Below, piece by piece: positions 15,891 to 40,634 of a stretch of 40,634 bases of DNA (the stretch's first letter is position 1; each line of letters starts with the position of its first letter). The notes beneath the pieces are model-generated. The model was not told where the DNA came from. It saw nothing but the letters and a program-made list of their open reading frames with translations, and made no database searches. Source of the DNA: Chthonomonadales bacterium (lineage in GTDB: Bacteria; Armatimonadota; Chthonomonadetes; Chthonomonadales; CAJBBX01); contig DAIDHP010000037.1 of assembly GCA_027459625.1 (NCBI GenBank), positions 1 through 40,634 on the forward strand, written 5' to 3'. Both the position numbers and the translations under genes were made by a program.

Positions 15891-15895
15891 AGATT

Positions 15896-21153: not shown

Positions 21154-22745
21154 TCAATCCTTGCTAATTACAAGCAAGGCATCCTCCCATCCCTGAGGGC
21201 GGGAGAGGGTGATCGACACGCCGACATGATTCATTTTGGACTTGGGCGTTCGCCCGCCCGTCTTTGGATCACGCCATTGAAACTCTATCGTCGAAGGAAG
21301 GCGAATGGAGGATATTTGAATGGAATCGTTATCGGGAAGATACGCCACAAGCAAGTCCCCTCTTGCTGAGGCGGCTAACGGCATATATTGTGTGGGTTCC
21401 TTGGCCTGGTTCATAACATACTCCGGATGCGGCTCCAACTCCCACCATTTCAATCCGTTTAGGAATTCCGAGAGATATTTCATCTGCATGGAGGATTCCC
21501 TATTCATTCCTTTTTCCCAACTCCACGCGCTTTCCTGAGGATCGCCGCCTCCCTTCACCCCCCAGTTCCATATCCCCGCGCACCCATACGTGTAACCCAC
21601 GCATCCGGAAAGGAGGCTCCAATACCCGCAACTCCTTGGCATACGGTCTCGCCGAAATCGCTGTCGTATCTCGATTCAAGGTCCACAACGGGTTTGACGG
21701 GTTGGAGCCGATAAAGGGCGAGACTCCATTCCACCGCATTACGCGCCGCGATATCGGCGCTGATGGGATTTCCGCCCCATCCCGCTCCCGTCTGCTCTCC
21801 ACTAATATCCAAATAAGGCTGGGCCCGATATTTGACGGAGGCGCTTAGCCCCGTTCCCGGATGCTGTGTGATGAGATGCATGGAGGAGGATTCCCTGATG
21901 GTGTTTCCGACGGAATTCGCCAAATCCATATACGGGCTGTCGAAGCTAGGCGAATATATCACGAAGTTTCCCATCAACCTAGCGACCAATTGCCGGGCGA
22001 AAGCCTGCGCCGATGCGGCGTTCGGATACCGTTTCACCGGCTCCATCAAACCCACAATCGCGACGGCAAGCCCCTGCTGATTGGCGAATTCGATTTTCTG
22101 TTCGTATTGACGCCCAAACGAGGGATTAATCTCCATGGGATTGTCGCGCAGCAGGGGCGGATCCCCTTGCCAGTCAAGACTTCCCTGCCAATCCTCAGCG
22201 CAGGATAGCTGCAATATGGAGAAACGTTTCTGCAAACGATCCGCCACGTAAACCTTCCAGTCTTCGAATTTCGCGTTCATCGGAGCCGCCCAAGCGGTAT
22301 CTCCACTCCACAAGAACGGCGTTCCATCATCATACGTTAGATATCGATTATTGGAGGAGACTCTGAAGTATCCGCGTCGGTACAAAGGGTTGGATCCGCG
22401 ATAGGGCTTCACATCCACCGTTCCGCGTTGATTGTGCAATCCGCTGTCGCTGGTGTCGGAGCAGGATGTCGCCCATTCCCATTTTCCGATATGCGGAAAC
22501 ATCGCCCTGATTTTGAACACGCTCCCTCCATCCCAGAAACCCAGCCCTTTTATAACGCTCCCCTTGTGCCCCCGATATGTCACGTATAAAATTACATCCG
22601 TGCCGGGGTTTGAGTAAGATTTCGAGCTCTGAAGGGAGTGCTCCCATCTTCTCCACGTTTGAACCAGGGGTTCTTTCGCTTCGGATAGCAGCGGAGCGCT
22701 GAGAAGGGATATTAAAAACGCTCTTCTCGTGATGGCCCTTTTCAT
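21154..22745 (-). pseudogene. Tat-exported DUF5060/apiosidase-like glycoside hydrolase, frameshifted
   Basis: The first 396-codon frame starts MKRAITRRAFLISLLSAPLL (Tat signal), then an N-terminal DUF5060-like sandwich (VILYVTYRGHKGSVIKGLGF, GKWEWATSCSDTSDSGL). A DUF4038-type barrel follows (LTYDDGTPFLWSGDTAWAAP, LQKRFSILQLSCAEDW, PVVDLESRYDSDFGE). Near 21640 homology jumps to another frame, MPRSCGYWSLLSGCVGYTYG, which carries the end of the barrel and the beta tail down to KD at 21154. A single small indel around 21630-21655 explains this. It is a secreted relative of the GH140-type enzyme at 5610-6902. The frameshift may be a real mutation or an assembly error. The upstream GH-A gene ends 21 bases before it, suggesting one operon. 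Confidence 0.7.
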
Positions 22746-22766
22746 CGGGATCCTCCTAAAGGGATG

Positions 22767-24269: not shown

Positions 24270-24468
24270 CGGATATGCTCCTAAAGGATCGTTAAAGAAG
24301 ATGTTAAAACGCATTTGTATCGTAACTTATACATATTAACCCTATTTTCGATGACAAGCAACCCTTTTTGGAAATCGTCCGTACCTTCGGATACATCCTA
24401 TCGCATGCTCATTCGCCTAAGATTGGAGTAAACTACGTTATCGCGAATCCGTTACAAAAGGAAATACT
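24270..24468. promoter_or_regulatory. Divergent promoter region between two hydrolase genes
   Basis: This 199-base AT-rich region separates the minus-strand GH-A gene from the plus-strand GH116-type gene and must hold both promoters. Around 24317-24334 the arms TGTAT and ATACA are spaced as an 18-base site, a weak relative of the CpG-centred operator palindromes. AAAGGAAA serves the plus-strand start at 24469. No hexamers are clear enough to assign. Confidence 0.35.
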
Positions 24469-27279
24469 ATGAAGGCGACTTGCGTTATCATATCAACGAT
24501 TATCACATGTTTGTTTCTGTCCGTTCCGATATCGGAAATATCCCTTTGCGCCAACGCAGCCATCCTTAAGAACGCCGCATTGAAAATGAAAGGGGAGGAT
24601 CAAGCAATGAAGAACCGCGCTTATCGCTACTCGATTGTGCATTTCTCCGATGCGCCTCGCACGGTCATTGGTGTAACATATCATTCCGGCGACACCAAAT
24701 CCTTCATGCCCTTGGGAGGCTTGGGAACCGGAACCCTAGGGATGAACAGCAGAGGTGAGTTTGTGAATCAATCCATCTCCAATAGTTACCGCCCCGTGCC
24801 TTTGGATCCTCAATCCTGTCGTATCGAAATAAAATCGGGACGTACGGGGAAGTGGGAGCCGTTCAGTGAATGGTCGAAGACCTATCTGGCACATTTTCCC
24901 ATTGAGGATTACGGGTGCTCTCGCAAGGGATCGCCGATTAAAATAGACCTTCGCGCATTCAGCCCCTTCATCCCCGATGATTCACGGGATTCCGCCACCC
25001 CCGTCGCTCTGTTTCGCTTCCGGGCGCATAACGTCGGGAAAAATGCCGCAAGAATCGCGATCCGTTTCCGATGGAACTCCCCTCTCTCCGAGACGGAAAA
25101 CGGGGTGACCTCCTCCGGCAACGTGGATGGATACTTACGATGGAATTTGGGCGACATTCAAGCAGGCGAACAGATGGTGGTGCCTGTGATGTTTCTCGCA
25201 GCGAACTCGATGCGAAGCCTGCACTCACTTTTCCGGCATCCCCATGGCGATATCACGCTTGATGAAAACGGTGCGTTCAACTGGGAAAACACAGGGCAGC
25301 AGTGCCTTCACACATCGGCGGGCGGATGCCTTAGCCAGCACGGCTTTTTCTTGCATTACACCCTTTCAGGGTCGAATACTCCATCCCGCGCCGGCACTTT
25401 AATCACGGGCGGCGAGCCGACGGAGAACCTGGTTAGAGTCTCTCATACCCCGGACAAAGTGGAGTTGAAAACCGAGGACGGGGCGCTCGCAGTGGAGGTG
25501 GATCGCGGGGACGGGGTCCTCACCTATCGTATTCGGAATATCGGTTCCTCGCCGGTGCGTGACCTTCAGCTTTCCGTATACGCCAATCTGGAGGCGAATC
25601 ACACCGAAATGGATGATCACGGGTGGCTGGACGCTAACCGAGGCGCACTCATCGTGACCGATTCATCGGGCGCGGCGTGTGCGCTTGCAAGCGATATCCC
25701 TCCCTCGGCGGGTTGGTGCGGATTATGGGGAGGCACCATTCAAAGGATGGTCGAGAACCAGGCTATACCTGTCAGTCAATGGAGTTCCGCGGAGAATAAG
25801 ATCACCTCGGTTTTATCCAAAGAATCCGAGGATGTCATTCTCACTCAGGAGGGGGAGGATCATTCAGGATGCACCCTCCTTGCGCCGCAAGAGGATGGGG
25901 TGTCCGTGGAGCCGGATTATCAATCACACGGCGCCATCTCCTTGGAGCAAAGCGTCATTCTTCCCCCGGGATCCTCGCGCGATATTAGGTTCATCCTCGC
26001 ATGGTATTATCCAAATGCCAAGGACAGCGACGGGAAGTTTGTCGGACATCAATACGCGCACTGGTTCGGAAACTCAAAGGAGGTGGCGATATACGCCGCG
26101 AAACATTGGGGAAATCTCGCAAGACGAACCGGAGAATGGCAGGAGAAGATATACGATGATCCGCATCTTCCGAATGGTTTGAAGGATCAATTGGTTAACT
26201 CCCTCTACTCGCTTGCGCGCAACACCTGCTGGCTTTACGACGGTCGGTTCAGCCATAGCGAATCCTTCATTGGATGCCCGATCACGGAGACCATTGTATG
26301 CAGGTTCTACGGCAGCATTGCCACGGCGTTGCTGTTCCCCGATCTTGAAAGGAACACCATGCGGCAATTCATGCATTGGCAGCGTCCGGATGGCGCCATC
26401 CCGTTCGCGTTTGGTCCCGGAGAGCGATGGAATTCGCCCTATTACGACACCCAGAAAGTGCTGGACAGCGCCGAGTTCGTTCTTATGGCGTGGCGGGATT
26501 ACAAGCTTTGGAAGGACGCGGCATGGGCGAAGGAGGTGTTTCCCGCTGTGCGAAAGGCGCTGCACTACGCAGCCAGTTTAAACAAGCCGGGAGAATATCT
26601 GCCCAATGACGATCTCTCCATGCAGTACTACGACTGCTGGCCATTCCATGGCGTTTCCGCTTACACCGGAGGAGTGTATCTCGCAGCCTTGAAAGCGGGG
26701 GCGGCGTTTGGCGCTCTATTGAACGATCAAGCTTTTGAAAGGGAGTGCGCACATCAGTTTAAGCTCTCCCAAGCGAGTTATGTTACAAGGTTATGGACCG
26801 GCTCTTATTACCGCCTTTGGAACGATGACACAACCGGCAAACGGAGCGACACATCCCTCGCCTCGCAACTGACAGGTCAATGGTATGCGTCGCTGTGCGG
26901 ATTGGGAGATATCCTGCCGGGCAACCAGATGATAACGGCGTTGAGACATGTGGCGAAGGTGAACGGCGGGGGTGGCGTGTGGGCGCTCGTCAATGGCGTC
27001 ACGCCAGATGGTTCACGGGATCACAACGGAACCAACGGTCAGTCGGACACCGCCACTTTGGGCGAGACTTGGTGTTTCGCAGCCACGTGCTATTGGCTGG
27101 ACAAACCGAACCTTGGATTGCCGTTTGTCAAACGACTATGCGAGGACATCGCTCTCAGGCAGAGGGATGATTGGGGTACCTCCTGGAACATGGATCCGGA
27201 TACGGGAGCCATGCTTTGGGGCGGGGAGTATTACAGCGACATGTGCGTGTGGAGCCTCTGGCTGGCGATGAAAAGGTAG
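24469..27279 (+). CDS. GH116-type glycosidase (DUF608 family)
   Basis: A 936-residue exported enzyme with a signal peptide (ATCVIISTIITCLFLSVPI). The N-terminal beta domain of the Glyco_hydr_116N type contains SFMPLGGLGTGTLGMNS. The alpha-toroid catalytic domain (DUF608) contains LVNSLYSLARNTCWLYDGRF, then SHSES with E598 and QYYDCWPFHGVSAYTGG with D722. By comparison with bacterial and human GBA2-type enzymes, these are my candidates for nucleophile and acid/base. Members act on beta-glucosides, beta-xylosides or related sugars; the exact sugar is not readable. The nucleophile motif is divergent from the LEG form seen in GBA2, so a different specificity is possible. First gene of a plus-strand unit with the oxidoreductase 119 bases downstream. 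Confidence 0.8.
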   Translation: MKATCVIISTIITCLFLSVPISEISLCANAAILKNAALKMKGEDQAMKNRAYRYSIVHFSDAPRTVIGVTYHSGDTKSFMPLGGLGTGTLGMNSRGEFVNQSISNSYRPVPLDPQSCRIEIKSGRTGKWEPFSEWSKTYLAHFPIEDYGCSRKGSPIKIDLRAFSPFIPDDSRDSATPVALFRFRAHNVGKNAARIAIRFRWNSPLSETENGVTSSGNVDGYLRWNLGDIQAGEQMVVPVMFLAANSMRSLHSLFRHPHGDITLDENGAFNWENTGQQCLHTSAGGCLSQHGFFLHYTLSGSNTPSRAGTLITGGEPTENLVRVSHTPDKVELKTEDGALAVEVDRGDGVLTYRIRNIGSSPVRDLQLSVYANLEANHTEMDDHGWLDANRGALIVTDSSGAACALASDIPPSAGWCGLWGGTIQRMVENQAIPVSQWSSAENKITSVLSKESEDVILTQEGEDHSGCTLLAPQEDGVSVEPDYQSHGAISLEQSVILPPGSSRDIRFILAWYYPNAKDSDGKFVGHQYAHWFGNSKEVAIYAAKHWGNLARRTGEWQEKIYDDPHLPNGLKDQLVNSLYSLARNTCWLYDGRFSHSESFIGCPITETIVCRFYGSIATALLFPDLERNTMRQFMHWQRPDGAIPFAFGPGERWNSPYYDTQKVLDSAEFVLMAWRDYKLWKDAAWAKEVFPAVRKALHYAASLNKPGEYLPNDDLSMQYYDCWPFHGVSAYTGGVYLAALKAGAAFGALLNDQAFERECAHQFKLSQASYVTRLWTGSYYRLWNDDTTGKRSDTSLASQLTGQWYASLCGLGDILPGNQMITALRHVAKVNGGGGVWALVNGVTPDGSRDHNGTNGQSDTATLGETWCFAATCYWLDKPNLGLPFVKRLCEDIALRQRDDWGTSWNMDPDTGAMLWGGEYYSDMCVWSLWLAMKR

Positions 27280-27398
27280 AATGTAGGCTTATCATCTCTT
27301 GCCGCGGATAATGGAAAGTGGTATCCTGAAAGATATGGTTTCTTAGATTTTTTTCAAGACATTCGACCCCTTAACTCACCGTTTCATAGGAGGCAAAG

Positions 27399-28868
27399 AT
27401 GTCCGAATCTGTTTCCAGACGCAAGTTTCTGCAAGACACACTCTCCCTGCTAGCCCTCAGCGCAGCACCGGTACAGGCTTTTGGCGCTTCTCCAAAGAGG
27501 CGTAAACCCTATGGCGCCAATGAGAAAGTGAGAATCGCCGTTTTAGGAGTTCATGGCAGGGGGCTGGATCACACCGCCGCATATTTGGCAATGCCCGACG
27601 TTGATGTGATCGCCATCTGCGACCCCGACACCGCCACTTGGGATCGCGCGGTGAAAATGGTGGAAAAATCGGGACGCCCCACCCCTAAGACCTATCAGGA
27701 TATCCGCAAGCTTCTCGAGGACAAGACACTTGACGCGGTCTCCATCGCCACCCCGAATCACTGGCACTCGCTCGCCGCCATCTGGGCGATGCAAGCAGGC
27801 AAGGATGTGTACGTGGAAAAGCCGGTGAGCCATAACGTGGCGGAAGGCTGGCGCATGGTGGAATGGACGCGACATACGAAACGAATTTGCCAGGCCGGAA
27901 CGCAATGCCGCTCCAGCAAGGGACTTCAGGAGGCGATGCAATGGCTTCATGAGGGGAACTTGGGCAAAATACACCTGGCAAGGGGGCTGTGTTACAAGCG
28001 ACGCGACTCCATAGGGTATGTGACCACTCCGCAGCCTCCTCCTCCCACGGTGGATTATGACATCTGGCTCGGCCCAGCTCCTTACAAGCCGGTTATGAGG
28101 AAAAGATTTCATTATGATTGGCACTGGTTTTGGGATTACGGCAATGGCGACCTAGGCAACCAGGGACCGCATGAGATGGACAAGGCTAGGTGGGCGTTGA
28201 ACAAAACCGAATTCCCCAAAACGGTGCTGGGATTGGGAGGTCGCTTCGGTTACAAGGATAACGGACAGACCCCCAACACCATGCTCGCATTGATGGATTA
28301 CGGGGATTGCAAGCTGATATTCGAGGTGCGAGGCTTGAAAACGGAGGAGTTCAAGGTTCGCAACATCCCGGCGGGGGCGTATATCGGCGATATCATCTAT
28401 GGCGAGAAGGGGGTGATGGTGAATAGCAATTACTCTTCCGCAACCGCATACGATTACGACGGAAACCTTCTGGCGAGCTTTAACGGAGGGGGCAATCACT
28501 TCCGAAACTTTATCGATGCGGTGCGCAGCCAGGATCCTTCCATTCTGAATGCGGAGATTGAAGTGGGTTATCTCTCCACATCGCTCAATCACCTGCCCAA
28601 CATATCCTATTTGCTTGGCAAACCCACACCCTTCCAGCCGATGACATCGGAGTTCAATTCGGACAAGGACGCTTTGGAAACTTTGAACGCCTTCTCCGAT
28701 CACTTGGCGGCGAACGGGATCAACCTTGAAGACAGCAAGTATTTTCTCGGGCCATCGCTCCGAATCGGACGAAACGCCGAGCGCATAGAGGGAAACAACC
28801 GGGTAAACAGCATGCTATCGGCATCCCACCGCTCACCGTTCTCGCTCCCCGCCACACCGAAAGCTTGA
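27399..28868 (+). CDS. Tat-exported Gfo/Idh/MocA-family oxidoreductase
   Basis: A 489-residue protein with a Tat signal (SRRKFLQDTLSLLALSAAP), a Rossmann fold (VRIAVLGVHGRGLDHTAAYL), the EKP motif in DVYVEKPVSHN and a substrate domain with YDWHWFWDYGNGDLGNQGPH. Cofactor-loaded oxidoreductases of this type are exported folded, which fits the Tat signal. Secreted family members include GH109-like glycosidases that use bound NAD for redox-assisted glycoside cleavage, and others of unknown role that are very common in polysaccharide-degrading environmental bacteria. The substrate is not identifiable. AGGAGG precedes the ATG. It lies between two exported hydrolase genes, so a role in the same extracellular process is likely. 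Confidence 0.85.
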   Translation: MSESVSRRKFLQDTLSLLALSAAPVQAFGASPKRRKPYGANEKVRIAVLGVHGRGLDHTAAYLAMPDVDVIAICDPDTATWDRAVKMVEKSGRPTPKTYQDIRKLLEDKTLDAVSIATPNHWHSLAAIWAMQAGKDVYVEKPVSHNVAEGWRMVEWTRHTKRICQAGTQCRSSKGLQEAMQWLHEGNLGKIHLARGLCYKRRDSIGYVTTPQPPPPTVDYDIWLGPAPYKPVMRKRFHYDWHWFWDYGNGDLGNQGPHEMDKARWALNKTEFPKTVLGLGGRFGYKDNGQTPNTMLALMDYGDCKLIFEVRGLKTEEFKVRNIPAGAYIGDIIYGEKGVMVNSNYSSATAYDYDGNLLASFNGGGNHFRNFIDAVRSQDPSILNAEIEVGYLSTSLNHLPNISYLLGKPTPFQPMTSEFNSDKDALETLNAFSDHLAANGINLEDSKYFLGPSLRIGRNAERIEGNNRVNSMLSASHRSPFSLPATPKA

Positions 28869-28900
28869 TAGATCGTAATACATAAAGAATGGGGGTGCAT

Positions 28901-31243
28901 ATGATTTTCAAGTCCGTTTTACTATTCATAGCGGCCACGCTTATATTGCAATACGCATCGGCGGATATTCCCAAACCCGGCACGGTGGCATCGATGGGGG
29001 TGAATATCCATTTCACGGATCCACGCCCCGGGGAGATGAAGGAGCTATCCGCCGCCGGATTCAAATGGATTCGGATGGATTTCAACTGGGCGGGCATCGA
29101 GAAATCCGCAGGTGTGTATGATTTCTCCGCTTACGATGTCTTGATGAGGGCGCTGAAGAGATATCGCATTCGCCCGATCTTCATTCTCGACTATGCCAAT
29201 CCGCTATACGACAATAATCAATCCCCTCATTCCCCGGAGGCGATCGCCGCTTTCGCGAAATGGGCGGCGGCTTCCGCCGTGCATTTCAAGGGCGATGGCG
29301 TTCTCTGGGAGATGTACAACGAGCCGAACGGGGGCTTTTGGCGTCCTCATCCCGATGTCAAGCAGTACGCCCGTCTGGCGCTCGCCACTGGAAAGGCTAT
29401 CAAGGCGGCCGACCCGAACGCCATGTATATCGGACCGGGGATGGCGGGGATGGATTTCCAGTTCGCAGGATATTGTTTTATGCAAGGGTTGTTAAAATAC
29501 TGGGACGCCGTATCCTGCCATCCCTATCGACAATCCAATCCCGAAACGGTCTCTCCGGATTATCTAACCCTCCGCAACCTAATCCATCGTTTCGCCCCCA
29601 AGGGCAAGCATATCCCCATCATCTCCAGCGAATGGGGGTACTCTTCCGTATGGGGAAACATGAACCCGGATAAGCAGGGAAGATATCTTCCGAGGGAGTT
29701 TCTCACCAACATTTCCAATGATATACCGGTCTCCATATATTATGATTGGCATGACGATGGTTTGTCACCTACGGACCCGGAGCATCATTTCGGCACGGTG
29801 CTCAACCCTTATCATGCCGGAGCGAATCGGATATACGATCCTAAGCCCGCTTACATTGCGGCGAAAACGCTCTCGACTCAATTGGATGGGTACGCATTCA
29901 GCAAAAGGCTGATCCAAAACGATTCGGATATTCAATGCATGCTCTTCACCAAAGGCAAATCCTGCAAGCTCGTAATCTGGACCACCGGCAAGGAGACAAC
30001 CCTTGCGCTGCCCGGTTCCTTCAAAGGGGTCAATCACCTTGGCGATCCCCTTGATTTGACCGAGGGCGCTGATGGCAAGACGATGGTTCAGGTCACCAAT
30101 GCACCGCACTACCTCACCCCCGCACGCCCGACGGACTGGCTCAAAGCCGCATCCGGATGGGAGAGGGCTCCACTGGATGTGATGAGCGCAAATGGAGATA
30201 TGACCCCGCTGACCCTCCGCTTTCGTAACGAACTGGGCAAGACCGTGAAGGTGAGAAACAACGGGGAATGGATAACCGTTCGACCCAATCGGACAGCGGA
30301 TCTTCGATACGATCTCAAGAATAACCGGGCGGTTGAGTTCACCACCGAGGTTCTTCCGCTGGAGGTGTCGGGAGTGGGAAGTTTCACTCAGCAAACATCC
30401 CTTGTTATCTCAAATCCGATTCAAGCCACATTGGAACCGGTGGGGTATCAAGGATTGATGGTGCAAGTGCAAAACCCGAGCGGCGGCGAGGAAACCCTGG
30501 AAGCCATGCTGAACGTCGACTCCGGATCGAATGTGGGAGTGGATCGTTTCCCCATCATTTTTGGGAAGGATGAGAAGAGTTTCACACGATTCTTCCCCTT
30601 TAACGAGCAATCCGACACCTACTCCGCCTCCGTAACCATGAAGGATACGGAGGGTCGGATTGTCGCGAAATTGCCCGATCAGCAGTTCAGCGCCTTAACC
30701 TCCCTCACGGAATTCTATGATGTGCCATCAATGCCGTCCGCATTGAATTTGCAGGTGTATCCTGACGGAGATCCGAAGATCGGCTCCACGCAGAAGCTTT
30801 CCGACGGAACGCCGGAGATGATAATCCCTGGACATCAATTCAAAACCGTCAAAATCACCTACACCATGGACACCGGCTGGAAATTCCTTCGCATCGGAAT
30901 CGCGGACGGAAAGCGGCTTTCCATACAGGGCAAACCGACCGCTTTCGGAATCTGGGTGAAGGGGGACGGACAGGGGTCACTCGCGAGATTGCGATTCACG
31001 GATTCGAGCGGACAGACCTTCCAACCCAGTGGCCCAACGATCGACTTTACGGGCTGGAGATATATGCAATTCCCCATGAATGGCAATGATTCCGGACACT
31101 GGGGGGGACCGAACGATGGAATCGTTCATTACCCCATCCACTGGGATTCGATCTTTCTGCTTGACGGGGGCGGAAAGGCGATGACGGGAGCGGTGGAGAT
31201 CGCAGCTCCCATGCTGATCTATTCCGGCAATGTGGAAAAGTAA
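28901..31243 (+). CDS. Secreted clan GH-A (GH5/GH39-like) glycoside hydrolase with accessory domains
   Basis: A 780-residue protein with a signal peptide (MIFKSVLLFIAATLILQYAS). The start at 28901 has a G-rich ribosome site; an ATG at 28889 would add four residues. Residues 30-340 form a GH-A barrel: AGFKWIRMDFNWAGIEKSAG, RPIFILDYANPLYD, WEMYNEPNG with acid/base E141 and PIISSEWGYS with nucleophile E244, with SIYYDWHDDG at the closing strand. Residues 340-420 carry a beta tail. The last 350 residues are beta-rich modules, ending in a CBM-like sandwich (FGIWVKGDGQGSLARLRFTD). The barrel resembles GH39 and related GH5 members; the substrate is undetermined. The previous gene ends 32 bases upstream, so they are probably cotranscribed. 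Confidence 0.78.
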   Translation: MIFKSVLLFIAATLILQYASADIPKPGTVASMGVNIHFTDPRPGEMKELSAAGFKWIRMDFNWAGIEKSAGVYDFSAYDVLMRALKRYRIRPIFILDYANPLYDNNQSPHSPEAIAAFAKWAAASAVHFKGDGVLWEMYNEPNGGFWRPHPDVKQYARLALATGKAIKAADPNAMYIGPGMAGMDFQFAGYCFMQGLLKYWDAVSCHPYRQSNPETVSPDYLTLRNLIHRFAPKGKHIPIISSEWGYSSVWGNMNPDKQGRYLPREFLTNISNDIPVSIYYDWHDDGLSPTDPEHHFGTVLNPYHAGANRIYDPKPAYIAAKTLSTQLDGYAFSKRLIQNDSDIQCMLFTKGKSCKLVIWTTGKETTLALPGSFKGVNHLGDPLDLTEGADGKTMVQVTNAPHYLTPARPTDWLKAASGWERAPLDVMSANGDMTPLTLRFRNELGKTVKVRNNGEWITVRPNRTADLRYDLKNNRAVEFTTEVLPLEVSGVGSFTQQTSLVISNPIQATLEPVGYQGLMVQVQNPSGGEETLEAMLNVDSGSNVGVDRFPIIFGKDEKSFTRFFPFNEQSDTYSASVTMKDTEGRIVAKLPDQQFSALTSLTEFYDVPSMPSALNLQVYPDGDPKIGSTQKLSDGTPEMIIPGHQFKTVKITYTMDTGWKFLRIGIADGKRLSIQGKPTAFGIWVKGDGQGSLARLRFTDSSGQTFQPSGPTIDFTGWRYMQFPMNGNDSGHWGGPNDGIVHYPIHWDSIFLLDGGGKAMTGAVEIAAPMLIYSGNVEK

Positions 31244-31337: not shown

Positions 31338-32096
31338 ATGGTACCGGAAAGTCATCCCAGCTATCCTCACCCAACCATCCAAGAGGCGATCTGCGAGATC
31401 ATCTTCGATCTGCCACAGGATAAGCCTTGGAATCCGTTATTGTTTGGTGAATACTTTAAAAGTGTCCAGGGTGATTACGCCTCATTTGAACCCGTTAATG
31501 TCCCAGGATTACAGCTTCAGTTTGGATTTGGCGTGCAAGATACGCCACCACCCCCTCCTTCGCAAATCGTTCGGTATCGACATGCGAAACATCCCGCGAT
31601 GATTCAGCAATCCGAGCGAAGCATTGCGGTGACACGCATGCCTGAATATCCTGGGTGGGAGACAATGCTCGAGGATATTGAGTATGCCTTCGAGCATTTA
31701 ATATCGGTAGTATGTCCTGAAAGAGTCGTAAGAATTGGATTAAGATATATCAACAGGATCGAAAGAAGTCATCCTGAAGAAAATCTATCCGCTTGGTTTT
31801 CCCCGAGCGATTACATTCCTGAGTATTTACTCCAATCCAAATCAGGCTTTTTCTCAATGACGCATACGAAAATGGATGACAACAACCGCTTAAATATAAT
31901 CATCGGTGAGCAATCCGGTCCTCAGCCTTCCGCACCGGCGTTTATCTTTGACATTGACAGACTATTGGAAAATGAGTTACCGCCGGAGATGGATAAATTG
32001 GTTGTTGAAATAAATCAGATGCATGACGATGTTTGGAATGTATTCAATAAGGTCAAAAATGATAAGTTGGTTAGACTGCTTAACGGAGAGATATGA
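31338..32096 (+). CDS. TIGR04255-family protein
   Basis: A 252-residue cytoplasmic protein behind GGAGG. The N-terminal pattern HPTIQEAICEIIFDLPQ and the central VVRIGLRYINRI segment match TIGR04255, a sporadically distributed family often met in accessory and defence-rich regions. The biochemical role is unknown. There is no signal peptide or membrane helix. The stop overlaps the start of the next gene (ATGATGA), and a third small gene follows, so the three form one transcription unit. Position just upstream of the restriction-like pair is suggestive of an accessory island, but the unit is separated from it by 146 bases. Confidence 0.75.
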   Translation: MVPESHPSYPHPTIQEAICEIIFDLPQDKPWNPLLFGEYFKSVQGDYASFEPVNVPGLQLQFGFGVQDTPPPPPSQIVRYRHAKHPAMIQQSERSIAVTRMPEYPGWETMLEDIEYAFEHLISVVCPERVVRIGLRYINRIERSHPEENLSAWFSPSDYIPEYLLQSKSGFFSMTHTKMDDNNRLNIIIGEQSGPQPSAPAFIFDIDRLLENELPPEMDKLVVEINQMHDDVWNVFNKVKNDKLVRLLNGEI

Positions 32097-32620
32097 TGAC
32101 ATCTACTATCATGACTGAATGCGACAAGTACTACCCTGAAACAGGAATCCCTCCATCGAAGCGGAATGGAAATGTGAAGCAAAATGAAAAAAACACAGCT
32201 AATATGATTACTGCGTACCCGGAGAATTTCCCTTTAAATTGCGTAAAGCCTACACCGTTCATCGATGAAACAGATATCGAAGTATCTCGGCGGCAAAAAT
32301 TATTTCTCTATTTAACTACTATAATGGAAGAGGGGGATATTACTAAATCCACTGCAAATATCGCTTGGGATGCTTGGCGCAGACTTTATGATTTTATGGA
32401 AAAGCGACTCCCGGTTCCGGATGCCGGTCCCGGGCCGGATGGTCAACTCCTTTATGTTTGGGATAAGGGGATACACCATTTTGAAATGGAGATATTTCCG
32501 GATAATCATGCGGAATTTTTTTACCTTAATCGCGAAACGGATGGAACTTGGGAACTGGATTACATCATCGGTAATTCACTTAACGATGAAATAAAAAAAT
32601 GGCTCGGTCTTTGCGTATAG
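32093..32620 (+). CDS. Hypothetical protein paired with TIGR04255
   Basis: A 175-residue protein of unknown function. Its N-terminal 60 residues are polar and probably disordered. The C-terminal half, GPDGQLLYVWDKGIHHFEME followed by HAEFFYLNRETDGTWE and DYIIG, is compact and beta-rich and has the look of a conserved small domain that accompanies TIGR04255 genes. It starts inside the stop codon of the upstream gene and ends four bases before the next one. No enzyme motif is visible. A toxin-antitoxin-like or regulatory role is possible, with no direct support. Confidence 0.6.
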   Translation: MMTSTIMTECDKYYPETGIPPSKRNGNVKQNEKNTANMITAYPENFPLNCVKPTPFIDETDIEVSRRQKLFLYLTTIMEEGDITKSTANIAWDAWRRLYDFMEKRLPVPDAGPGPDGQLLYVWDKGIHHFEMEIFPDNHAEFFYLNRETDGTWELDYIIGNSLNDEIKKWLGLCV

Positions 32621-32624
32621 TCCC

Positions 32625-33114
32625 ATGAGTCATTTGCTTCATCCAGGAGAAACAGGGGAGCGGTTATCCAATGATGAATCGGTATATCGTCTTCTAAAGA
32701 GCCTGAAAGACGGAAAAGTGATTCCTGAACATTTCGCATTGAGTTCCAAGGATGAGGCAAGTCCTTTATGCGCCTTATCCGTTTGGGCGGAAAGCCTTAC
32801 AACCCCCTTGCAAGCTCTTGAGCTTATGACAGGGAACAAGCGCGAATACACTCACTACTGCAGCCTTCAGGTGCAACAAGTCAGATCGTTAACCATCTCC
32901 GAACTACCGCAACCGGCGCTGGATGTCGTTTGGGACCGCCTGTGCATTGAGGGAACATCGCAGGCTGATACTTCGCCCAGGTGCGAAGGGGCACGCGGGA
33001 ATTACCGGTCTTCGACGATCTTTAAACATTCCAAGAAGCAGCTACAAAACCTTGCGAACAAGGCTTGCGGATATGGCTAATCAAAATCTAGGAATGATGG
33101 TATCCACCTCATAA
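32625..33114 (+). pseudogene. Small hypothetical gene, probably frameshifted
   Basis: The frame opening at 32625 (MSHLLHPGETGERLSNDESV, then FALSSKDEASPLCALSVWAE) looks coherent up to about residue 107. The frame then reads a low-quality tail to 33080. In the next frame a coherent end appears from about 32945, RPGAKGHAGITGLRRSLNIP followed by SYKTLRTRLADMANQ, stopping at 33114. A one-base indel near 32945-32960 would join both into about 163 residues. The family is not recognised. It is the third gene of the TIGR04255 unit. The frameshift may be real decay or an assembly error. Confidence 0.5.
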
Positions 33115-33260: not shown

Positions 33261-36200
33261 ATGCCGCGGATTTTCGACAACATTGATGAAAATCTTATGC
33301 CCGCTTTGAAAACGACCCTCGGTGTCTCCGAAAGAGCCGATTTCTGCGTGGGTTATTTCAACCTTAGGGGATGGAAAAGCCTTGACGAAGCCATCGAACG
33401 CTGGTCGGGGGAGGACAATTCCTGCTGCCGCCTGCTGGTGGGGATGCAGAAACTCCCCCAGGATGTGCTTCGGGAAGAGCTAAGCATGACACCCGCAGAC
33501 CACACGATGGATAATCTGTCCGCAGTCAAACTTAAAAAGCGACTTGCGGAGGAGTTTCGCGACCAGATATCCATGGGGATTCCAACAAACGAGGACGAGG
33601 CGGGGCTTCGCCGACTTGCAAAACAAATTCAAACCGGCAAGGTGAGAGTCAAACTCTTCCTGCGCTTCCCTCTGCATGCGAAGCTTTACCTGCTTTTCCG
33701 CGAGGACTATAACAATCCGGTCACCGGCTTTCTTGGCAGCAGCAACCTCACTCTGGCGGGATTGTCCGGGCAGGGCGAGTTGAACGTGGACGTGACGGAC
33801 CATGACGCCTGCATCAAACTGGCGAAATGGTTCGAGGATCGATGGAACGACCGTTGGTGCCTGGATATCTCCGAGGAGTTGGCTCGCATCATCGGGGAAA
33901 GTTGGGCGGGCGCGGAGATTCCCCCGTATCACATCTACCTGAAAATGGCGTATCACCTCTCCCAGGAAGCGCGCGAAGGTTTGACGGAGTTTAATATCCC
34001 GCGCGACTTCGGAGAGAAACTTTTTGACTTCCAGATCGCATCGGTGAAAATCGCCGCGCATCACCTGAATAAACGGGGAGGCGTGCTGGTGGCGGATGTC
34101 GTAGGCCTCGGTAAGACTTTGACCGCATGCGCAATCGCAAAAATCTTCCAGGATGATCACTTCCTTGAAACCCTCATCCTCTGCCCGAAAAACCTAGTCG
34201 GGATGTGGGAGGATCATGTGGCAAACTATCGTTTGTTCGCCAAAGTGCTCCCGATCAGCCGCGCCATCAATGAACTTCCCAATCTGCGCAGATACAGGGT
34301 GATGGTGATAGATGAAAGCCACAATTTACGCAATCGTGAGACTAAAACCTACCGCGCCATCAAGGATTACATCGATAAAAACGATAGTAAATGCATCCTG
34401 CTCACAGCGACACCCTACAACAAAACCTACCTGGACCTCTCCAGCCAGCTTCGGCTTTTTGTGCCGGATGATATGGACCTTGGAATCCGCCCCGAAAGGA
34501 AGATGCAGGAGCCGGGAGGCGAAGTGGAGTTTATCCGGCGTCACCAGTGCCCAGTCCGTTCCCTGGCTGCTTTTGAAAAAAGCGATTATACACAGGATTG
34601 GCAGGAGCTGATGCGCCTCTTCATGGTGCGCCGCACAAGGAGCTTTATCCAGAAAAATTACGCAAAGACAGACCCATCCTGCCAGCGTGCTTATCTCACC
34701 ATGGAAAATGGCGAAAAATCGTACTTCCCTGCACGCGAACCAAGGACGGTGAAATTCGTGGTGGACGAAAATAACCCGGAGGATCAGTATGCGAGGCTTT
34801 ATGCGCGATTTGTGGTGGACAAAGTGGCATCCCTGGAGCTGGCGCGATATGGACTGGGGAATTATCTCGTATCCACTCCACTTCCTCCGCCTAATCAGCA
34901 TGAGGAAAAGATCCTTAAAGATATTGGACGCGCAGGAAAACGTCTGATGGGTTTTTGCCGAACCAATCTCTTCAAACGGCTGGAAAGCGGTGGCGTAACA
35001 TTCCTGCAGTCAGTTCATCGCCATATTCTGCGTAATTATGTGTTCATACATGCGCTGGAAAACGGACAGCCAGTCCCCATAGGAACGCAGGACATGGAAG
35101 TGTTTGACACACGATCCAATGATGAGGAAGAGGATGCTCCCGTTGGATATATGGATGGAGAGGATAATGCTCCTCGCGAAATAGAGAGTGTGATCAGCTT
35201 CAGCCATACCGAGGACTGGTATCGCCATAGAGCGGCGGAAAAATACGCCGAATATGCAGGGGCGCATAAAAAGCGGTTCCAGTGGCTTCGCCCCGATCTC
35301 TTTGTTCCAAACTTAAAGGAAAGCCTGCGGACGGATGCCAGAACCCTGCTCTCCGTGCTGGAAAAGTGCGGGGAGTGGAACCCCCGGGAAGACGCCAAAC
35401 TTAACGCCCTGCAGGATTTGATAACAAAAAGACACCCCGGGGAGAAGATACTCATTTTTACGCAGTTCGCCGATACGGTGCGCTATCTTACAGCCGAATT
35501 GAAAAGAAGAGGCATACAATCCCTGGAGGGCGTGACGGGAGATTCCGATAACCCCACGGAATATGCATGCAGGTTCAGCCCGGTGAGCAATAACAAGCGC
35601 GATAGCATCTCCCCGGATGAGGAACTGAGAGTGCTGATAGCCACTGATGTGCTGAGCGAGGGGCAGAACCTTCAGGATTGCTCCATCATTGTCAACTATG
35701 ACCTGCCATGGGCGATTATCCGGCTGATTCAGCGGGCGGGGCGCGTAGACCGCATCGGGCAGAAGGCTGAACGGATTCTCTGCTGCTCTTTTGTGCCTGC
35801 GGAAGGGGTGGAGCGAATTATACGGCTGCGTGCAAAGGTTCGCAGACGGCTGCATGAAAACGCGGAGGTGGTGGGCACGGATGAAGCCTTTTTCGAGGAC
35901 GAAATGACGGATACACAGCTTCAGGATATCTTCACGGAAAAGTCCGGGCTTCTGGATGATGAGGAGGACGATGATGTCGACCTATCCTCTTACGCCTACC
36001 AGATCTGGAAAAACGCCATCGAGCAGGATCCCAAACTGAAAAGCATCATTCCGAATATGCCGAATGTCACCTTCTCCACAAAGGAATATCAGCCCGCCCT
36101 GCGATTTCCGGAAGGTGTGCTGGTATATATGCGCACCGCCGAGGGCAGCGATGCCCTTGCATGGATGAACACGGCGGGGAAGAGCGTGACCCAATCCCAG

Positions 36201-36647
36201 CTCGCCATCCTCAAGGCGACGGAGTGTGTTCCACACACTCCCGCCCTGCCCCGCGACGACAGGCATCACGCCCTCGTTGCGAATGGGGTGGAGCATCTCA
36301 TCGGAGAGGAGAAGTCCATCGGCGGGCAGCTTGGAAGACCCTCCGGGGCAAGATTTAAAACCTATGAACGGCTGAAGCGCTACGCCATAAACAACAAAAA
36401 CACCCTGTTCGATTCAGTGGAATTGAACAAAGCGATGGATGACATCTACCGCTATCCTCTGAGGCAAACAGCCACGGATACATTAAACCGTGTCATCAAG
36501 AGCGGTTTGGATGATGATGCGCTCGTGGATCTGGTTACGAATCTGTGGAAAGATAATAGGCTGTGCATGGTGCAGGAAGAGGCTGAATTACAGGAACCTC
36601 GATTGATCTGCTCCATGGGCTTGTTTTCGAAAGGATACGGGATTTAA
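33261..36647 (+). CDS. Helicase with N-terminal PLD nuclease-like domain (SNF2 family)
   Basis: A 1128-residue protein behind GAAGAGGAG. Residues 1-200 are phospholipase-D-like: FCVGYFNLRGW, then LHAKLYLLF (H139, K141) and FLGSSNLTLAGLSGQGELNV, the HxK...GSSN pattern of PLD nucleases. A SNF2/superfamily 2 helicase follows: ADVVGLGKT (Walker A, 278-286), VIDESHNLRN (DExH, 351-354), LLTATPYN, then KILIFTQFADTVRYL, IATDVLSEGQNLQDC and IQRAGRVDRIGQ (motif VI, about 823-833). The C-terminal 250 residues are unassigned. It may translocate on DNA and cleave through the PLD domain. The stop codon shares a base with the start of the methyltransferase gene, so the two are coupled. DISARM DrmD has a comparable helicase but, as I recall, no PLD part. 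Confidence 0.85.
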   Translation: MPRIFDNIDENLMPALKTTLGVSERADFCVGYFNLRGWKSLDEAIERWSGEDNSCCRLLVGMQKLPQDVLREELSMTPADHTMDNLSAVKLKKRLAEEFRDQISMGIPTNEDEAGLRRLAKQIQTGKVRVKLFLRFPLHAKLYLLFREDYNNPVTGFLGSSNLTLAGLSGQGELNVDVTDHDACIKLAKWFEDRWNDRWCLDISEELARIIGESWAGAEIPPYHIYLKMAYHLSQEAREGLTEFNIPRDFGEKLFDFQIASVKIAAHHLNKRGGVLVADVVGLGKTLTACAIAKIFQDDHFLETLILCPKNLVGMWEDHVANYRLFAKVLPISRAINELPNLRRYRVMVIDESHNLRNRETKTYRAIKDYIDKNDSKCILLTATPYNKTYLDLSSQLRLFVPDDMDLGIRPERKMQEPGGEVEFIRRHQCPVRSLAAFEKSDYTQDWQELMRLFMVRRTRSFIQKNYAKTDPSCQRAYLTMENGEKSYFPAREPRTVKFVVDENNPEDQYARLYARFVVDKVASLELARYGLGNYLVSTPLPPPNQHEEKILKDIGRAGKRLMGFCRTNLFKRLESGGVTFLQSVHRHILRNYVFIHALENGQPVPIGTQDMEVFDTRSNDEEEDAPVGYMDGEDNAPREIESVISFSHTEDWYRHRAAEKYAEYAGAHKKRFQWLRPDLFVPNLKESLRTDARTLLSVLEKCGEWNPREDAKLNALQDLITKRHPGEKILIFTQFADTVRYLTAELKRRGIQSLEGVTGDSDNPTEYACRFSPVSNNKRDSISPDEELRVLIATDVLSEGQNLQDCSIIVNYDLPWAIIRLIQRAGRVDRIGQKAERILCCSFVPAEGVERIIRLRAKVRRRLHENAEVVGTDEAFFEDEMTDTQLQDIFTEKSGLLDDEEDDDVDLSSYAYQIWKNAIEQDPKLKSIIPNMPNVTFSTKEYQPALRFPEGVLVYMRTAEGSDALAWMNTAGKSVTQSQLAILKATECVPHTPALPRDDRHHALVANGVEHLIGEEKSIGGQLGRPSGARFKTYERLKRYAINNKNTLFDSVELNKAMDDIYRYPLRQTATDTLNRVIKSGLDDDALVDLVTNLWKDNRLCMVQEEAELQEPRLICSMGLFSKGYGI

Positions 36648-39600
36648 TGGATAAGCTTGATATCACGCTCACAAAAGAACTTCTGAACAATTTCGATTTC
36701 AAAAGGCTGTTCATTGAGGTGCTCGGGTGGTCCTCCCCATCCACGAGTCATACCGAGATATTTAACGTCCAGGGAACGCGCTTGGAACGTCTGCAAATAG
36801 CAGAGTTATCCGGCGTACCGGTTTTCGAGATATCCTCCAATGAGGGGATTCCCTCCTCCAGCATCCGAGAGGCGGTCCACAGGGAGATCGCCAAACACTA
36901 CCATGAAAACCTGCTGATCTTCGTCTACCCCGGGCGCACGCAAAGCATCTGGCGATGGGAGAAACGAGAGGATGGAAGGAGAAGCTCGCGGGAACATGTC
37001 TACTTGAAGGGACAGCCCGGAGACCTTTTCATCAGCAAAATCAGCGCCATGATGTTTGATATCAGCCAGTTTGAAAAAGAGATTTCTATCGTCCAGGTGG
37101 CTGACGCCATGCATTCCGCGCTGGATGTGGAGCGAGTGACCAAAAAGTTTTATTCCGAGTTCACGGAGAAACGGCTGGAGTTTACGGAGCTGATACAGGG
37201 CATAGATGACCCGCGCGACAAAAAATGGTATGCGTCGATCCTGCTCAACCGCATGATGTTCATCTACTTCCTCCAGAAGAAGTTTCTGCTGAACAAGGGG
37301 GACGACCGATACCTTCAGGGCAAACTCAAGGAGTGCGAGCGCAGGTTTGGCGGCGACAGCTATTATAAATGTTTTCTCAACCCTCTTTTCTTTGAAGGGT
37401 TCGCCAAACCGCCGGAGAAAAGAAGTCCGGGAAACCGGGAACTGCTGGGGGAGATCGTCTACCTGAACGGCGGACTTTTCCTGCCGCATCGAATCGAGGG
37501 GGAGTACTCGAACATCCAAATTCCCGATAAGGCGTTTGAAAACCTTTTCCGGCTGTTCGAGAGCTACTCCTGGAACCTTGACGACACCCCGGGCGGCAAG
37601 GACGACGAGATCAACCCGGATGTGCTGGGATACATCTTCGAAAAATATATCAACCAGAAGGAGTTCGGCGCCTACTACACCCGACCGGAAATAACGGAAT
37701 ACCTGTGCGAACACACCATCCACCAAATCATCCTGGACAAAGTGAACGAGGCGTTCGGACCTCCGTTTCATCCTTCACCCCGGCGCTACGACTCGCTGCC
37801 GGAGCTTCTGCTGAACCTGGATGCGGAAATGTGCCGCCGCCTGTTTCGGGATATCCTGCCGAACCTGAGCATCCTGGACCCCGCTTGCGGCTCGGGAGCC
37901 TTCCTGGTGGCGGCGATGAAGACGCTTGTCAATATCTACGGCGCCGTGACGGGCGGGATGGAATACCTCGGTAACCAGGACCTAGACCGGGAGCTGAAAG
38001 AAATCCGCGACAGGCACAAAAGCATCCTTTATCATATAAAGCGGGAGATCATCACGCACAATCTCTTCGGAGTGGACATCATGGATGAAGCGTGCGAAAT
38101 CGCCCGGCTCCGCCTCTTCCTCGCGCTGGTCGCTTCCGCGCACTCGGTGGAGGAGTTGGAACCGCTCCCCAATATCGACTTCAACATTCTTTCCGGAAAC
38201 TCCCTGATTGGATATTTGCGCGTGGAGCCGAATGACTTCGACCGTCACGCCCGCCTTGGCCGCGATCCCTACGGTGAATTGATCCGCAAAAGAAATATCG
38301 CGGTCAAAGCTTATCAGGATGCATGCGGTTACTCCGCCGACCTGCACGCGGTCCGGCGCGAAATCGAGGAGATGGAGCGCGAAGCGTCGGAATCTCTCGA
38401 CGAAATGCTTATGGATGATTTTACCGGCATGAAGATCAAATTCGAGCAGGCCTCATGGGACTCAGGCAATGGCAAGGAGGACAAGCCCCGAAAGCGAGCG
38501 GTCACCGAGGAGGATATCGCCGAGCTGACCCCGCTCCACTGGGGGTATGAGTTCGACGGGATATTCGCCCGCAACGGGGGGTTTGACGTCATCATCACCA
38601 ACCCGCCGTGGGAGACCTTCAAACCGCAGGCGAAGGAGTTCTTCGAGGAACACTCCGAACTGGTCACCAAAAACAAGATGACTATCAAGGAGTTCGAGAA
38701 GGAGCAGGCGCGCCTGCTTAAGGACCCCGCCATTTGCGCGGCGTGGCTGGAATACCTCTCTCGATTTCCTCATGTCTCCGCCTATTTCCGCTCCGCGCCT
38801 GAATACGTCAATCAGATATCCGTGGTTGACGGCAAAAAGCAAGGTACGGATATCAACCTGTACAAGCTGTTCACCGAACGCTGTTTCCGGCTGCTGCGGG
38901 ATGGCGGGGAGTGCGGCATCGTGATACCCTCCGGCATTTACACCGACCTCGGCACGAAACAGCTCCGCGAAATGCTCTTTTCGCAGTGCCGGGTGACGGG
39001 CCTCTTCTGCTTCGAGAATCGCAAGGGGATATTCGAGAATGTGGACAGCCGTTTTAAGTTTGTCACGCTCACCTTCCGGAAAGGCGGGCGAACGGAGAGC
39101 TTTCCCGCCGCCTTCATGCGTCATGACGTGGAGGAGCTTGCGGACTTCCCCCGGCGCGGTGCGCTGCCCATCGCCGTGGAGACCATCCGCCGACTCTCGC
39201 CCGATTCGCTCTCCGTCACCGAGTTCAAAGATCCGCTGGACTTCCAAATCGCGGAGAAGATGATGGCATTTCCGCGGCTGGGCGAGGAAGTTCCGGGCAG
39301 ATGGAAGCTGGTTCTGGGGAATGAGTTCCACATGACAAACGACTCCCATCTCTTCCGCACGGAGCCGGGTCCGGGCCGCCTGCCGCTGTACGAAGGCAAG
39401 ATGATCCACCAGTTCACGCACACATGGGGGCAGCCGAAGTACTGGGTGGACGAGGCGGAGGGCCGCGCCGCCATCCTCGGCAGAACCCCCGACAAGGGTC
39501 AGAAGCTGGATTATCAGAGGTACCGGCTGGCATACCGCTCCGTCGCATCATGTACAAATGAACGGACCATCATCGCCAGCATACTCCCGGCAAATGTTTT

Positions 39601-40240
39601 TTATAGTCATTCTTTAAATGCTAACCGCAGCATGATCTCACCTGGTGAAATGCTTTTTTGTGTTTCTTTGCTGGATAGCTTTGTGCTTGATTATATGTTA
39701 CGTCATTCAGTAAGCGCAAACCTCACAATGTTCTTCATGTATGAATTACATCTTCCCCGCCTGAGCGAGGGGGATGCGGGTTTCGCGCCTCTGGCGGAGC
39801 GGGCGGCACGGCTGGTATGCACCTCCCCGGAGTTCGATGATCTGGCAAAGGCGGTGGCATCCTCATCCCCCGGCCCCTTCCCCAAGTTTGGGGAAGGGGG
39901 GGGAGGGGCTGACCGTGTTCCCCCCTCTCCATCCTTGGAGAGGGGGTCAGGGGGTGAGGGTATTGTCGGGCGGGAGGACTGTCTGCAAGCACGCGTTCCC
40001 CCCTCTCCATCCTTGGAGAGGGGGTCAGGGGGTGAGGCATTGTCGGCCGGGAGGATTGTGCCCGCCACGGAACCGGCGGAACGCGCGCAGCTCCGGGCGG
40101 AGATCGACGCCATCGTGGCGCATCTGTACGGCCTCACACGGGAGGAGTTCGCGCACATCCTCTCCACCTTCTCCCTCGTGGCGGAGGAGGTCAGGCAGGC
40201 GGCGATGCGGGAGTTCGAGAGTTCCTCCGGCACCAGATGA
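36647..40240 (+). CDS. Eco57I-type restriction-modification methyltransferase
   Basis: A 1197-residue protein. The N-terminal 340 residues (including LIFVYPGRTQSIWRWEKR and a helical bundle) resemble the leading part of type IIG and DrmMI-like methyltransferases. FGAYYTRPEITEYLCEHTI precedes the N6-adenine methyltransferase core with motif I DPACGSGAFLVA (D411) and motif IV TNPPW (N652). The long insert between motifs is typical of Eco57I relatives. About 450 residues of presumed target-recognition region follow. It should methylate adenine in a host recognition sequence, protecting DNA from the coupled PLD-helicase. Residues 1070-1140 are encoded by palindromic repeats (39861-40060) that insert a G/P/S-rich stretch without breaking the frame. 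The conserved tail AQLRAEIDAIVAHLYGL then resumes, indicating the gene is still intact. Confidence 0.85.
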   Translation: MDKLDITLTKELLNNFDFKRLFIEVLGWSSPSTSHTEIFNVQGTRLERLQIAELSGVPVFEISSNEGIPSSSIREAVHREIAKHYHENLLIFVYPGRTQSIWRWEKREDGRRSSREHVYLKGQPGDLFISKISAMMFDISQFEKEISIVQVADAMHSALDVERVTKKFYSEFTEKRLEFTELIQGIDDPRDKKWYASILLNRMMFIYFLQKKFLLNKGDDRYLQGKLKECERRFGGDSYYKCFLNPLFFEGFAKPPEKRSPGNRELLGEIVYLNGGLFLPHRIEGEYSNIQIPDKAFENLFRLFESYSWNLDDTPGGKDDEINPDVLGYIFEKYINQKEFGAYYTRPEITEYLCEHTIHQIILDKVNEAFGPPFHPSPRRYDSLPELLLNLDAEMCRRLFRDILPNLSILDPACGSGAFLVAAMKTLVNIYGAVTGGMEYLGNQDLDRELKEIRDRHKSILYHIKREIITHNLFGVDIMDEACEIARLRLFLALVASAHSVEELEPLPNIDFNILSGNSLIGYLRVEPNDFDRHARLGRDPYGELIRKRNIAVKAYQDACGYSADLHAVRREIEEMEREASESLDEMLMDDFTGMKIKFEQASWDSGNGKEDKPRKRAVTEEDIAELTPLHWGYEFDGIFARNGGFDVIITNPPWETFKPQAKEFFEEHSELVTKNKMTIKEFEKEQARLLKDPAICAAWLEYLSRFPHVSAYFRSAPEYVNQISVVDGKKQGTDINLYKLFTERCFRLLRDGGECGIVIPSGIYTDLGTKQLREMLFSQCRVTGLFCFENRKGIFENVDSRFKFVTLTFRKGGRTESFPAAFMRHDVEELADFPRRGALPIAVETIRRLSPDSLSVTEFKDPLDFQIAEKMMAFPRLGEEVPGRWKLVLGNEFHMTNDSHLFRTEPGPGRLPLYEGKMIHQFTHTWGQPKYWVDEAEGRAAILGRTPDKGQKLDYQRYRLAYRSVASCTNERTIIASILPANVFYSHSLNANRSMISPGEMLFCVSLLDSFVLDYMLRHSVSANLTMFFMYELHLPRLSEGDAGFAPLAERAARLVCTSPEFDDLAKAVASSSPGPFPKFGEGGGGADRVPPSPSLERGSGGEGIVGREDCLQARVPPSPSLERGSGGEALSAGRIVPATEPAERAQLRAEIDAIVAHLYGLTREEFAHILSTFSLVAEEVRQAAMREFESSSGTR
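39861..40060 (+). repeat. Palindromic repeats inserted in frame into the methyltransferase gene
   Basis: Three perfect hairpins lie in the coding sequence. Hairpin 1 has arms CCCCTTCCCCAA (39874-39885) and TTGGGGAAGGGG (39888-39899). Hairpins 2 and 3 share arms CCCCCTCTCCA and TGGAGAGGGGG at 39921-39946 and 39999-40024. The two latter belong to a tandem duplication with a 78-base period, exactly 26 codons, so both copies encode VPPSPSLERGSGGE in the same frame. A homologous copy of the hairpin 1 and 2 region lies outside the gene at 40470-40545. The type matches dispersed intergenic palindromes, here living inside a protein. Confidence 0.8.
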
Positions 40241-40469: not shown

Positions 40470-40545
40470 CCTCATCCCCCCGCCCCTTCCCCAAGTTTGG
40501 GGAAGGGGGGTCTGGGGCCGACCGCATTCCCCCCTCTTTATCCTT
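40470..40545 (+). repeat. Second copy of the palindromic element, cut by an insertion sequence
   Basis: The sequence repeats the arrangement found inside the methyltransferase gene: CCTCATCCCCC, hairpin arms CCCCTTCCCCAA (40483-40494) and TTGGGGAAGGGG (40497-40508), then a GGGGCCGACCGCATTCCCCCC stretch that corresponds to 39906-39926 (one base group differs). It breaks off in the second hairpin after its left part, at CTTTATCCTTT, where insertion-sequence-like DNA begins. Confidence 0.7.
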
Positions 40546-40634
40546 TGTCAATGACGACTTGAAAATGCACAGTTTTTAGCGGAATGAAAATGTACATGTT
40601 TATTAGGTTTCCATGGTTTTTCCCTCCTCTTTTT
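40546..40634 (+). mobile_element. Insertion sequence terminus (IS21/ISNCY-like), continues beyond window
   Basis: TGTCAATGACGACTTGAAAA starts abruptly within the palindromic repeat. It contains two related motifs, TTGAAAATGCACAG and ATGAAAATGTACATG, separated by TTTTTAGCGGA. This repeated GAAAATGTAC pattern is what I recall from the ends of IS21-like or ISNCY elements. No transposase start is visible before the window ends, so family and completeness are open. Confidence 0.5.

Follow-up and report, generated by a model that had tools for sequence, protein, structure and literature searches.

Do a nuclease-motor gene and a DNA methyltransferase gene that overlap by a single base form a defence system of their own, and if so, of which kind? 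The question is raised by two genes, here called A and B, near the end of contig DAIDHP010000037.1 of a Chthonomonadales bacterium (assembly GCA_027459625.1); the window is the whole stretch analysed, 40,634 nucleotides in length. A preliminary description of this DNA had seen in the pair the motor, nuclease and modifier of a minimal restriction system, either a reduced DISARM or a distinct defence type. The hallmark of restriction-modification (R-M), a nuclease gene genetically linked to a DNA methyltransferase gene, is present, and the evidence presented here makes it quite probable that A and B constitute a two-subunit, ATP-dependent R-M system.

The reading of A as a PLD-like nuclease (H139, K141, GSSN) joined to a complete SNF2 motor is borne out by its domains and motifs. 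The Pfam domains PLDc_2 (PF13091) and NgoFVII-PLD (PF09565) fall at residues 111-195 and are followed by SNF2-rel_dom and Helicase_C, all exceeding the Pfam cut-offs. Among 39 aligned homologues, the nuclease residues H139, K141 and G159-S160-S161-N162 are invariant or nearly so, as are the motor residues of Walker A (D279-V-V-G-L-G-K285), D351-E352 and Q824-R825...R828...D830-R831; a pattern scan found the nuclease motif in 46 of 46 homologues. By analogy with other nucleases that have one HKD motif only, A, which likewise has a single one, is likely to act as a dimer. The AlphaFold model of A (mean predicted local distance difference test score, pLDDT, 76) resembles SWI2/SNF2 cores in the PDB, such as 1z63 (Z 18.3) and ZorD (8qy7, Z 17.4), in a structure comparison that covered mainly residues 236-908 of A and 163-1168 of B. 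Both open reading frames were found at the coordinates given in Table 1, and their junction reads TTTAATG, base 36647 being the last of the TAA of A and the first of the ATG of B, so that the one-base overlap reported earlier is real.

B matches the Eco57I methylase family of Pfam (E 1.7e-22), and its D411-P412...G415-S416 and N652-P653-P654 residues (DPxxGSxAF and NPP) are invariant in 31 homologues. These results agree with the earlier assignment to the adenine methyltransferases; that adenine is the target base we infer from the family and from single-molecule real-time (SMRT) sequencing data on one homologue. In the structure model of B (pLDDT 74), the part from residue 163 aligns with BrxX from residue 1 of the latter (Z 27.1), and the model also matches the methyltransferase half of the Type ISP enzyme LlaBIII (Z 24.4) and MmeI (Z 23.9). 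DrdV aligns with it already from residue 5 (Z 23.0) and BrxX only from B residue 163, which places the first ~160 residues of B where Type IIG/IIL enzymes have their nuclease.

This raises the possibility that B works alone as a Type IIG/IIL enzyme, cutting with a nuclease of its own, and that A is an accessory or an unrelated neighbour. The best PADLOC family for B is indeed REase_MTase_IIG (E 6.5e-113, versus 6e-23 for DrmMI), and its N-terminal 160 residues occupy the place of the DrdV nuclease with a nuclease-like topology in the model. However, no conserved D/ExK site was found in this domain among 41 homologues. The Type IIG label is therefore doubtful and, judged from sequence, looks wrong. 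The distribution of the two genes bears on the same point.

We collected 62 loci with A from many phyla and scored pairing in the 41 that have a near-complete A and 1.2 kb or more of sequence after it. B is the next gene on the same strand in 39 of these 41, and the gap between A and B is at most 200 nt in 27 of the 38 loci with a scorable B N-terminus. The two remaining loci are L038, where the contig ends within a B-like start, and L067, which has an MmeI-type methyltransferase. A survey of 151 genomes from relatives of the host gave 20 with A (called present at 44% identity or better) and 18 with a B that includes the N-terminal domain, each of the 18 being A-positive. A and B are thus near-obligate partners, and the consistent presence of A argues against B being a stand-alone Type IIG enzyme. 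A separate draw of loci from related genomes gave B as the next gene in 10 of 11 with A at 44% identity or better and readable downstream sequence, the exception being L100 (L095 stops too early to be scored). The pair is patchily distributed (20/151 genomes) and partly plasmid-borne, which also speaks for an R-M system. In genome G116, only 2 bp separate B from a guaB-like gene, which leaves no room for a further member of the pair on the B side.

Further combinations of this sort were also encountered. The genome of the window carries, on the minus strand of a second contig (C2, L105, 917-7509), another PLD-SNF2 protein (1061 aa) followed in the same gene order by an Eco57I-type methyltransferase (1084 aa; PADLOC IIG family, E 4.6e-229), and on the minus strand of a third (C3, L106, 2371-9784) a further HKD-SNF2-family protein (C3a139, E 5.8e-121) with a Type III methyltransferase. 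On archaeal and Paenarthrobacter plasmids (L078, L080 and L081), a large Eco57I-type methyltransferase (1313-1375 aa) lies upstream, not downstream, of more distant HKD-SNF2 genes.

The way in which A and B vary is as expected of an R-M system in which B is an exchangeable specificity module and A a constant cutter. B sequences form two well separated classes, that of the window belonging to class 1, and the class switches at least 8 times on the tree of A (38 rows), near the mean of 9.7 for shuffled labels. The window and locus L007 are 75% identical in A and 35% in B; for L008 and L056, the values are 81% and 40%. Class-2 pairs with methyltransferase cores 76-85% identical share only 39-44% past residue 660. 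Between Synechocystis 6803 and 7338, A and the antitoxin and VapC in one operon with it are 97, 96 and 91% identical, and B is 86-90% identical over ~100 residues and then mostly 20-65% (in 50-residue blocks). The N-terminal domain of B may thus be what docks on A. We considered whether the first ~100 residues of B always move with A and rejected this, since the pattern is confined to the Synechocystis pair. In the older swaps (window/L007 and L056/L008), these residues are 34-42% identical and A 75-81%, so whole-gene exchange of B happens too. In relatives from actinobacteria, A is partnered by an MmeI-type methyltransferase in which the MmeI_hel, Mtase, target-recognition (TRD) and C domains were matched but the MmeI nuclease domain was not. 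This fits a separate restriction (R) subunit and, together with the missing D/ExK site and the distribution of B, leaves the view of B as a self-contained Type IIG/IIL enzyme improbable. The proposal of a minimal restriction system, on the other hand, gains from the near-obligate partnership, from the diversification of the recognition half of B and from the swapping of B while A stays. The pair would be a natural case of a restriction cutter staying in place while its recognition half is exchanged.

An experimentally studied relative is found in a model cyanobacterium. Plasmid pSYSX of Synechocystis 6803 carries an A homologue at 43696-47151 and a B homologue at 47827-51129. The genes ssr6048/slr6049 sit between them (PMC4963859), which identifies the B homologue as slr6050 and, by consecutive numbering, the A homologue as slr6047. 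The methyltransferases M.Ssp6803IV and M.Ssp6803V are both located on pSYSX (PMC6604393); the former has the motif GAm6AGGC and the latter was assigned to slr6095-97 (PMC7296061). A motif scan of pSYSX found the NPPY/F methyltransferase motif in slr6050 and slr6095 only. As slr6095 corresponds to M.Ssp6803V and no other pSYSX protein has the motif, slr6050, a class-2 B about 36% identical to that of the window, is by elimination M.Ssp6803IV. Methylation of GAm6AGGC is possible on one strand only. One-strand methylation of a motif is also a property of Type ISP, MmeI and BREX enzymes. Work by Hagemann in 2018 is said to have named slr6050 as the probable responsible methyltransferase and to have called it essential, which would be in keeping with an active nuclease as its partner. 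We found slr6050 described as a methyltransferase, and no link to the neighbouring A, in the open-access literature. A VapC-type toxin-antitoxin pair lies between A and B on pSYSX (L069) and on pSyn7338-2 (L109), retained across the B swap. With a member on pSYSX of Synechocystis PCC 6803 and its motif GAm6AGGC (by elimination), the mechanism becomes directly testable, and a relevance to transformation barriers in cyanobacteria is possible.

We propose that the C-terminal part of B would recognize an asymmetric DNA site, in which B would methylate one adenine and thereby protect the host. Unmethylated incoming DNA would switch on a complex of A and B, in which the SNF2 motor of A may translocate along the DNA and its PLD nuclease, probably dimeric, may cut, with restriction of phage as the presumed outcome. 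In function, the whole would then amount to a Type ISP enzyme whose parts are divided between two chains, PLD replacing the PD-(D/E)XK nuclease. More tentatively, and with somewhat less than even confidence, the pair may represent a widespread unnamed class, in which a conserved HKD-SNF2 cutter works with interchangeable modification/specificity (M/S) subunits (Eco57I-type class 1, class 2 or MmeI-type), which would dock on it by an inactive, nuclease-like N-terminal domain; a DprA-like or a RecF-like/DUF4276 gene would be optional as a third layer. If this is true, many proteins filed as Type IIG are the M/S half of an HKD-SNF2 cutter class. The R-M reading would account for two large proteins annotated apart as "helicase-related protein" and "Type IIG/DNA methyltransferase".

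Whether two genes are enough depends on what follows B. A gene for a DprA-like protein (PF02481; weak PADLOC PsyrA match) follows it in 12 of 20 class-2 loci with room and in 0 of 6 class-1 loci, and a fixed third gene was therefore rejected as a core part for class 1, to which the window belongs. In several class-1 loci, the last 4 bp of B are shared with a RecF-like ATPase gene, and a DUF4276 gene is sometimes present; Fic, VapC, AlbA-like, HNH and similar proteins (named by inspection or record annotation) fill other flanking slots. The DprA-like proteins downstream of class-2 B are single-domain proteins (L022 17391-18044, L011 17525-18142 and 13 other loci), and no link of a DprA-like SLOG protein to an HKD-SNF2 R-M pair was found in the open-access literature. 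The two-gene layout of the preliminary description thus stands as far as the pair is concerned and less so as to its completeness, since the window contig stops 394 bp beyond B, in repeated sequence, and some relatives have a third gene at that place.

These neighbours are compatible with a BREX/DISARM-like exclusion mechanism, in which the pair would block phage replication without cutting and possibly need the DprA-like or the RecF-like ATPase subunits. Such a mechanism would accord with a methyltransferase fold closest to BrxX and with a window contig that ends before the third-gene position. Against it, the genome has no match to DUF499 (PF04465) or PglZ (PF08665), the assembly being incomplete, nor to a DrmB-type MZB/DUF1998 protein (PF09369), for which control genomes were positive and the assembly is 96.6% complete. 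Moreover, the third genes differ between loci and are missing from many of them, two genes appear to be enough in G116, and the HKD nuclease motif is retained in every homologue checked. We consider exclusion without cutting unlikely.

Two kinds of repeat lie near the end of the contig, one of them inserted in B. A GC-rich palindromic repeat is present in frame within B (39861-40037) and again after its stop (40470-40545), with weaker copies on contig C62 of the same genome; it looks like a miniature inverted-repeat transposable or repetitive extragenic palindromic (MITE/REP-like) element that tolerates insertion into coding sequence. The terminal sequence (40546-40634) recurs on four other contigs (C62, C63, C40 and the first base of C19) and is probably the end of an insertion sequence. 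One could imagine from the in-frame insert in the C-terminal part of B, and from the existence of orphan methyltransferases of the B kind in Calothrix, that the locus performs degenerate or host-domesticated methylation for gene regulation instead of defence, or that it is non-functional in the window strain. Yet the catalytic motifs of A and B are all intact, both reading frames are open at full length, and a conserved nuclease-motor would be superfluous for a regulator, all of which makes domestication or decay very improbable.

Several observations do weigh against a two-subunit R-M system. Two of the 20 A-bearing genomes have no detectable B, and at least one B, on a Calothrix plasmid, has no adjacent A (the "helicase" beside it was considered as an A homologue and rejected, being a D5 primase). 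The nuclease activity of A is predicted from its motifs, and the C-terminal third of B was modelled at low confidence. The repeat insert might harm B in the window strain, and a further subunit beyond the contig end is possible.

On the other side of the pair lies a candidate accessory cassette (Table 1), which in locus L016 of the same genus is found downstream of B (14390-16063; 57, 42 and 47% identity for its three proteins). Two congeneric species thus carry the cassette on opposite sides of the A-B pair. Carbohydrate-metabolism genes (apiosidase-like, GH116, cellulase-like GH5 and Gfo/Idh/MocA; 21555-31243) adjoin the pair, and there is no tRNA within the window.

Table 1. Coordinates of the A-B locus and adjoining features in the window.
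Feature	Position	Strand	Basis or remark
Gene A, HKD (PLD) nuclease-SNF2 motor fusion, 1128 aa	33261..36647	+	Proposed restriction (R) subunit
A residues 1-200, PLD-like nuclease domain	33261..33860	+	Pfam PLDc_2 at 111-195; conserved residues
A catalytic positions H139; K141; GSSN 159-162	33675; 33681; 33735-33746	+	
A residues 235-880, two-lobed SNF2 motor (Walker A, DESH, QRAGRVDR)	33963..35900	+	Pfam; structural match
Gene B, BrxX/MmeI-like N6-adenine methyltransferase of the gamma class that includes a target-recognition part, 1197 aa	36647..40240	+	Proposed modification and specificity subunit
B residues 1-160, N-terminal alpha/beta domain at Type IIG/IIL nuclease position, without conserved D/ExK; possible docking domain	36647..37126	+	Model secondary structure; DrdV alignment; Synechocystis breakpoint
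B residues 163-860, helical spacer and gamma-methyltransferase core	37133..39226	+	Invariant columns; BrxX alignment
B motif I DPACGSGAF 411-419; NPPW 652-655	37877-37903; 38600-38611	+	
B residues about 861-1060, probable target-recognition region, evolving fast	39227..39826	+	Identity drop past residue 660 in relatives; low model confidence
Palindromic repeat insert, in frame within B (SPSLERGSGGE...)	39861..40037	+	Nearest relative lacks it
Contig end inside repeat, hiding any gene further downstream	40546..40634	.	Same sequence at or near ends of other contigs
Three-gene cassette, TIGR04255 family protein and two small unknown proteins	31338..33080	+	Just upstream of A; candidate accessory

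How does the pair compare with known systems? Membership in DISARM, BREX and the BREX-related systems was rejected, as DrmB, PglZ and DUF499 were not found and the DISARM scores are far under the cut-offs. The SNF2 helicase (DrmD) and adenine methyltransferase (DrmMI) families of DISARM are distant kin of A and B. Nevertheless, A reaches 139 bits for DrmD, whose cut-off is 610, and is also far under the cut-off of the PLD antiphage family NF042964, B fits the Type IIG family far better than DrmMI, the PLD nuclease is fused and not separate, and no DrmB-type protein was found in the genome. The DISARM likeness proposed earlier is therefore not upheld, and of the suggested "reduced or distinct defence type" only the distinct two-gene type survives. 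Type-2 BREX-related (BR) systems have an HKD endoDNase N-terminal to an SNF2 helicase together with an N6-methyltransferase, and are built on a DUF499 ATPase, with DUF3780 (NAR 2026, PMC12839542). A shares the HKD nuclease fused to the SNF2 N-terminus (by Pfam), and an N6-methyltransferase accompanies it. The window genome differs in having no DUF499 match, and among its relatives no gene of this type recurs as a third core component.

The PADLOC HKD+Snf2 candidate family C3a139, which has no curated cut-off, matches A at full length yet distantly (E 6.6e-51 over residues 3-875, compared with 1e-123 and 5.8e-121 for members). In the loci examined, its strong members (E ~1e-120) adjoin DUF4391 and/or a Type III methyltransferase, not a gamma-class one. 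Type III R-M differs likewise, B being gamma-class (Eco57I/MmeI, BrxX) and not a beta-class Mod. B follows the spacer-methyltransferase-TRD order of Type IIG/IIL enzymes (MmeI, DrdV) and of BREX BrxX (Z 23-27), but its N-terminal domain is without a conserved nuclease site and the proposed cutter is the neighbouring gene. No description of this two-gene HKD-SNF2/gamma-methyltransferase layout was found in the open-access literature. The parts and the overall logic are known, and it would tentatively be the two-chain HKD/gamma-methyltransferase layout that has escaped description. The closest parallel in logic is provided by the Type ISP enzymes LlaGI and LlaBIII, which combine a nuclease, a superfamily 2 (SF2) translocase, a gamma-methyltransferase and a TRD, and whose asymmetric sites are methylated on one strand. 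Type ISP enzymes are single chains with an Mrr-like PD-(D/E)XK nuclease (PMC3874165), whereas here the same functions appear to be divided between two reading frames that share one base, with a PLD/HKD nuclease in place of PD-(D/E)XK.

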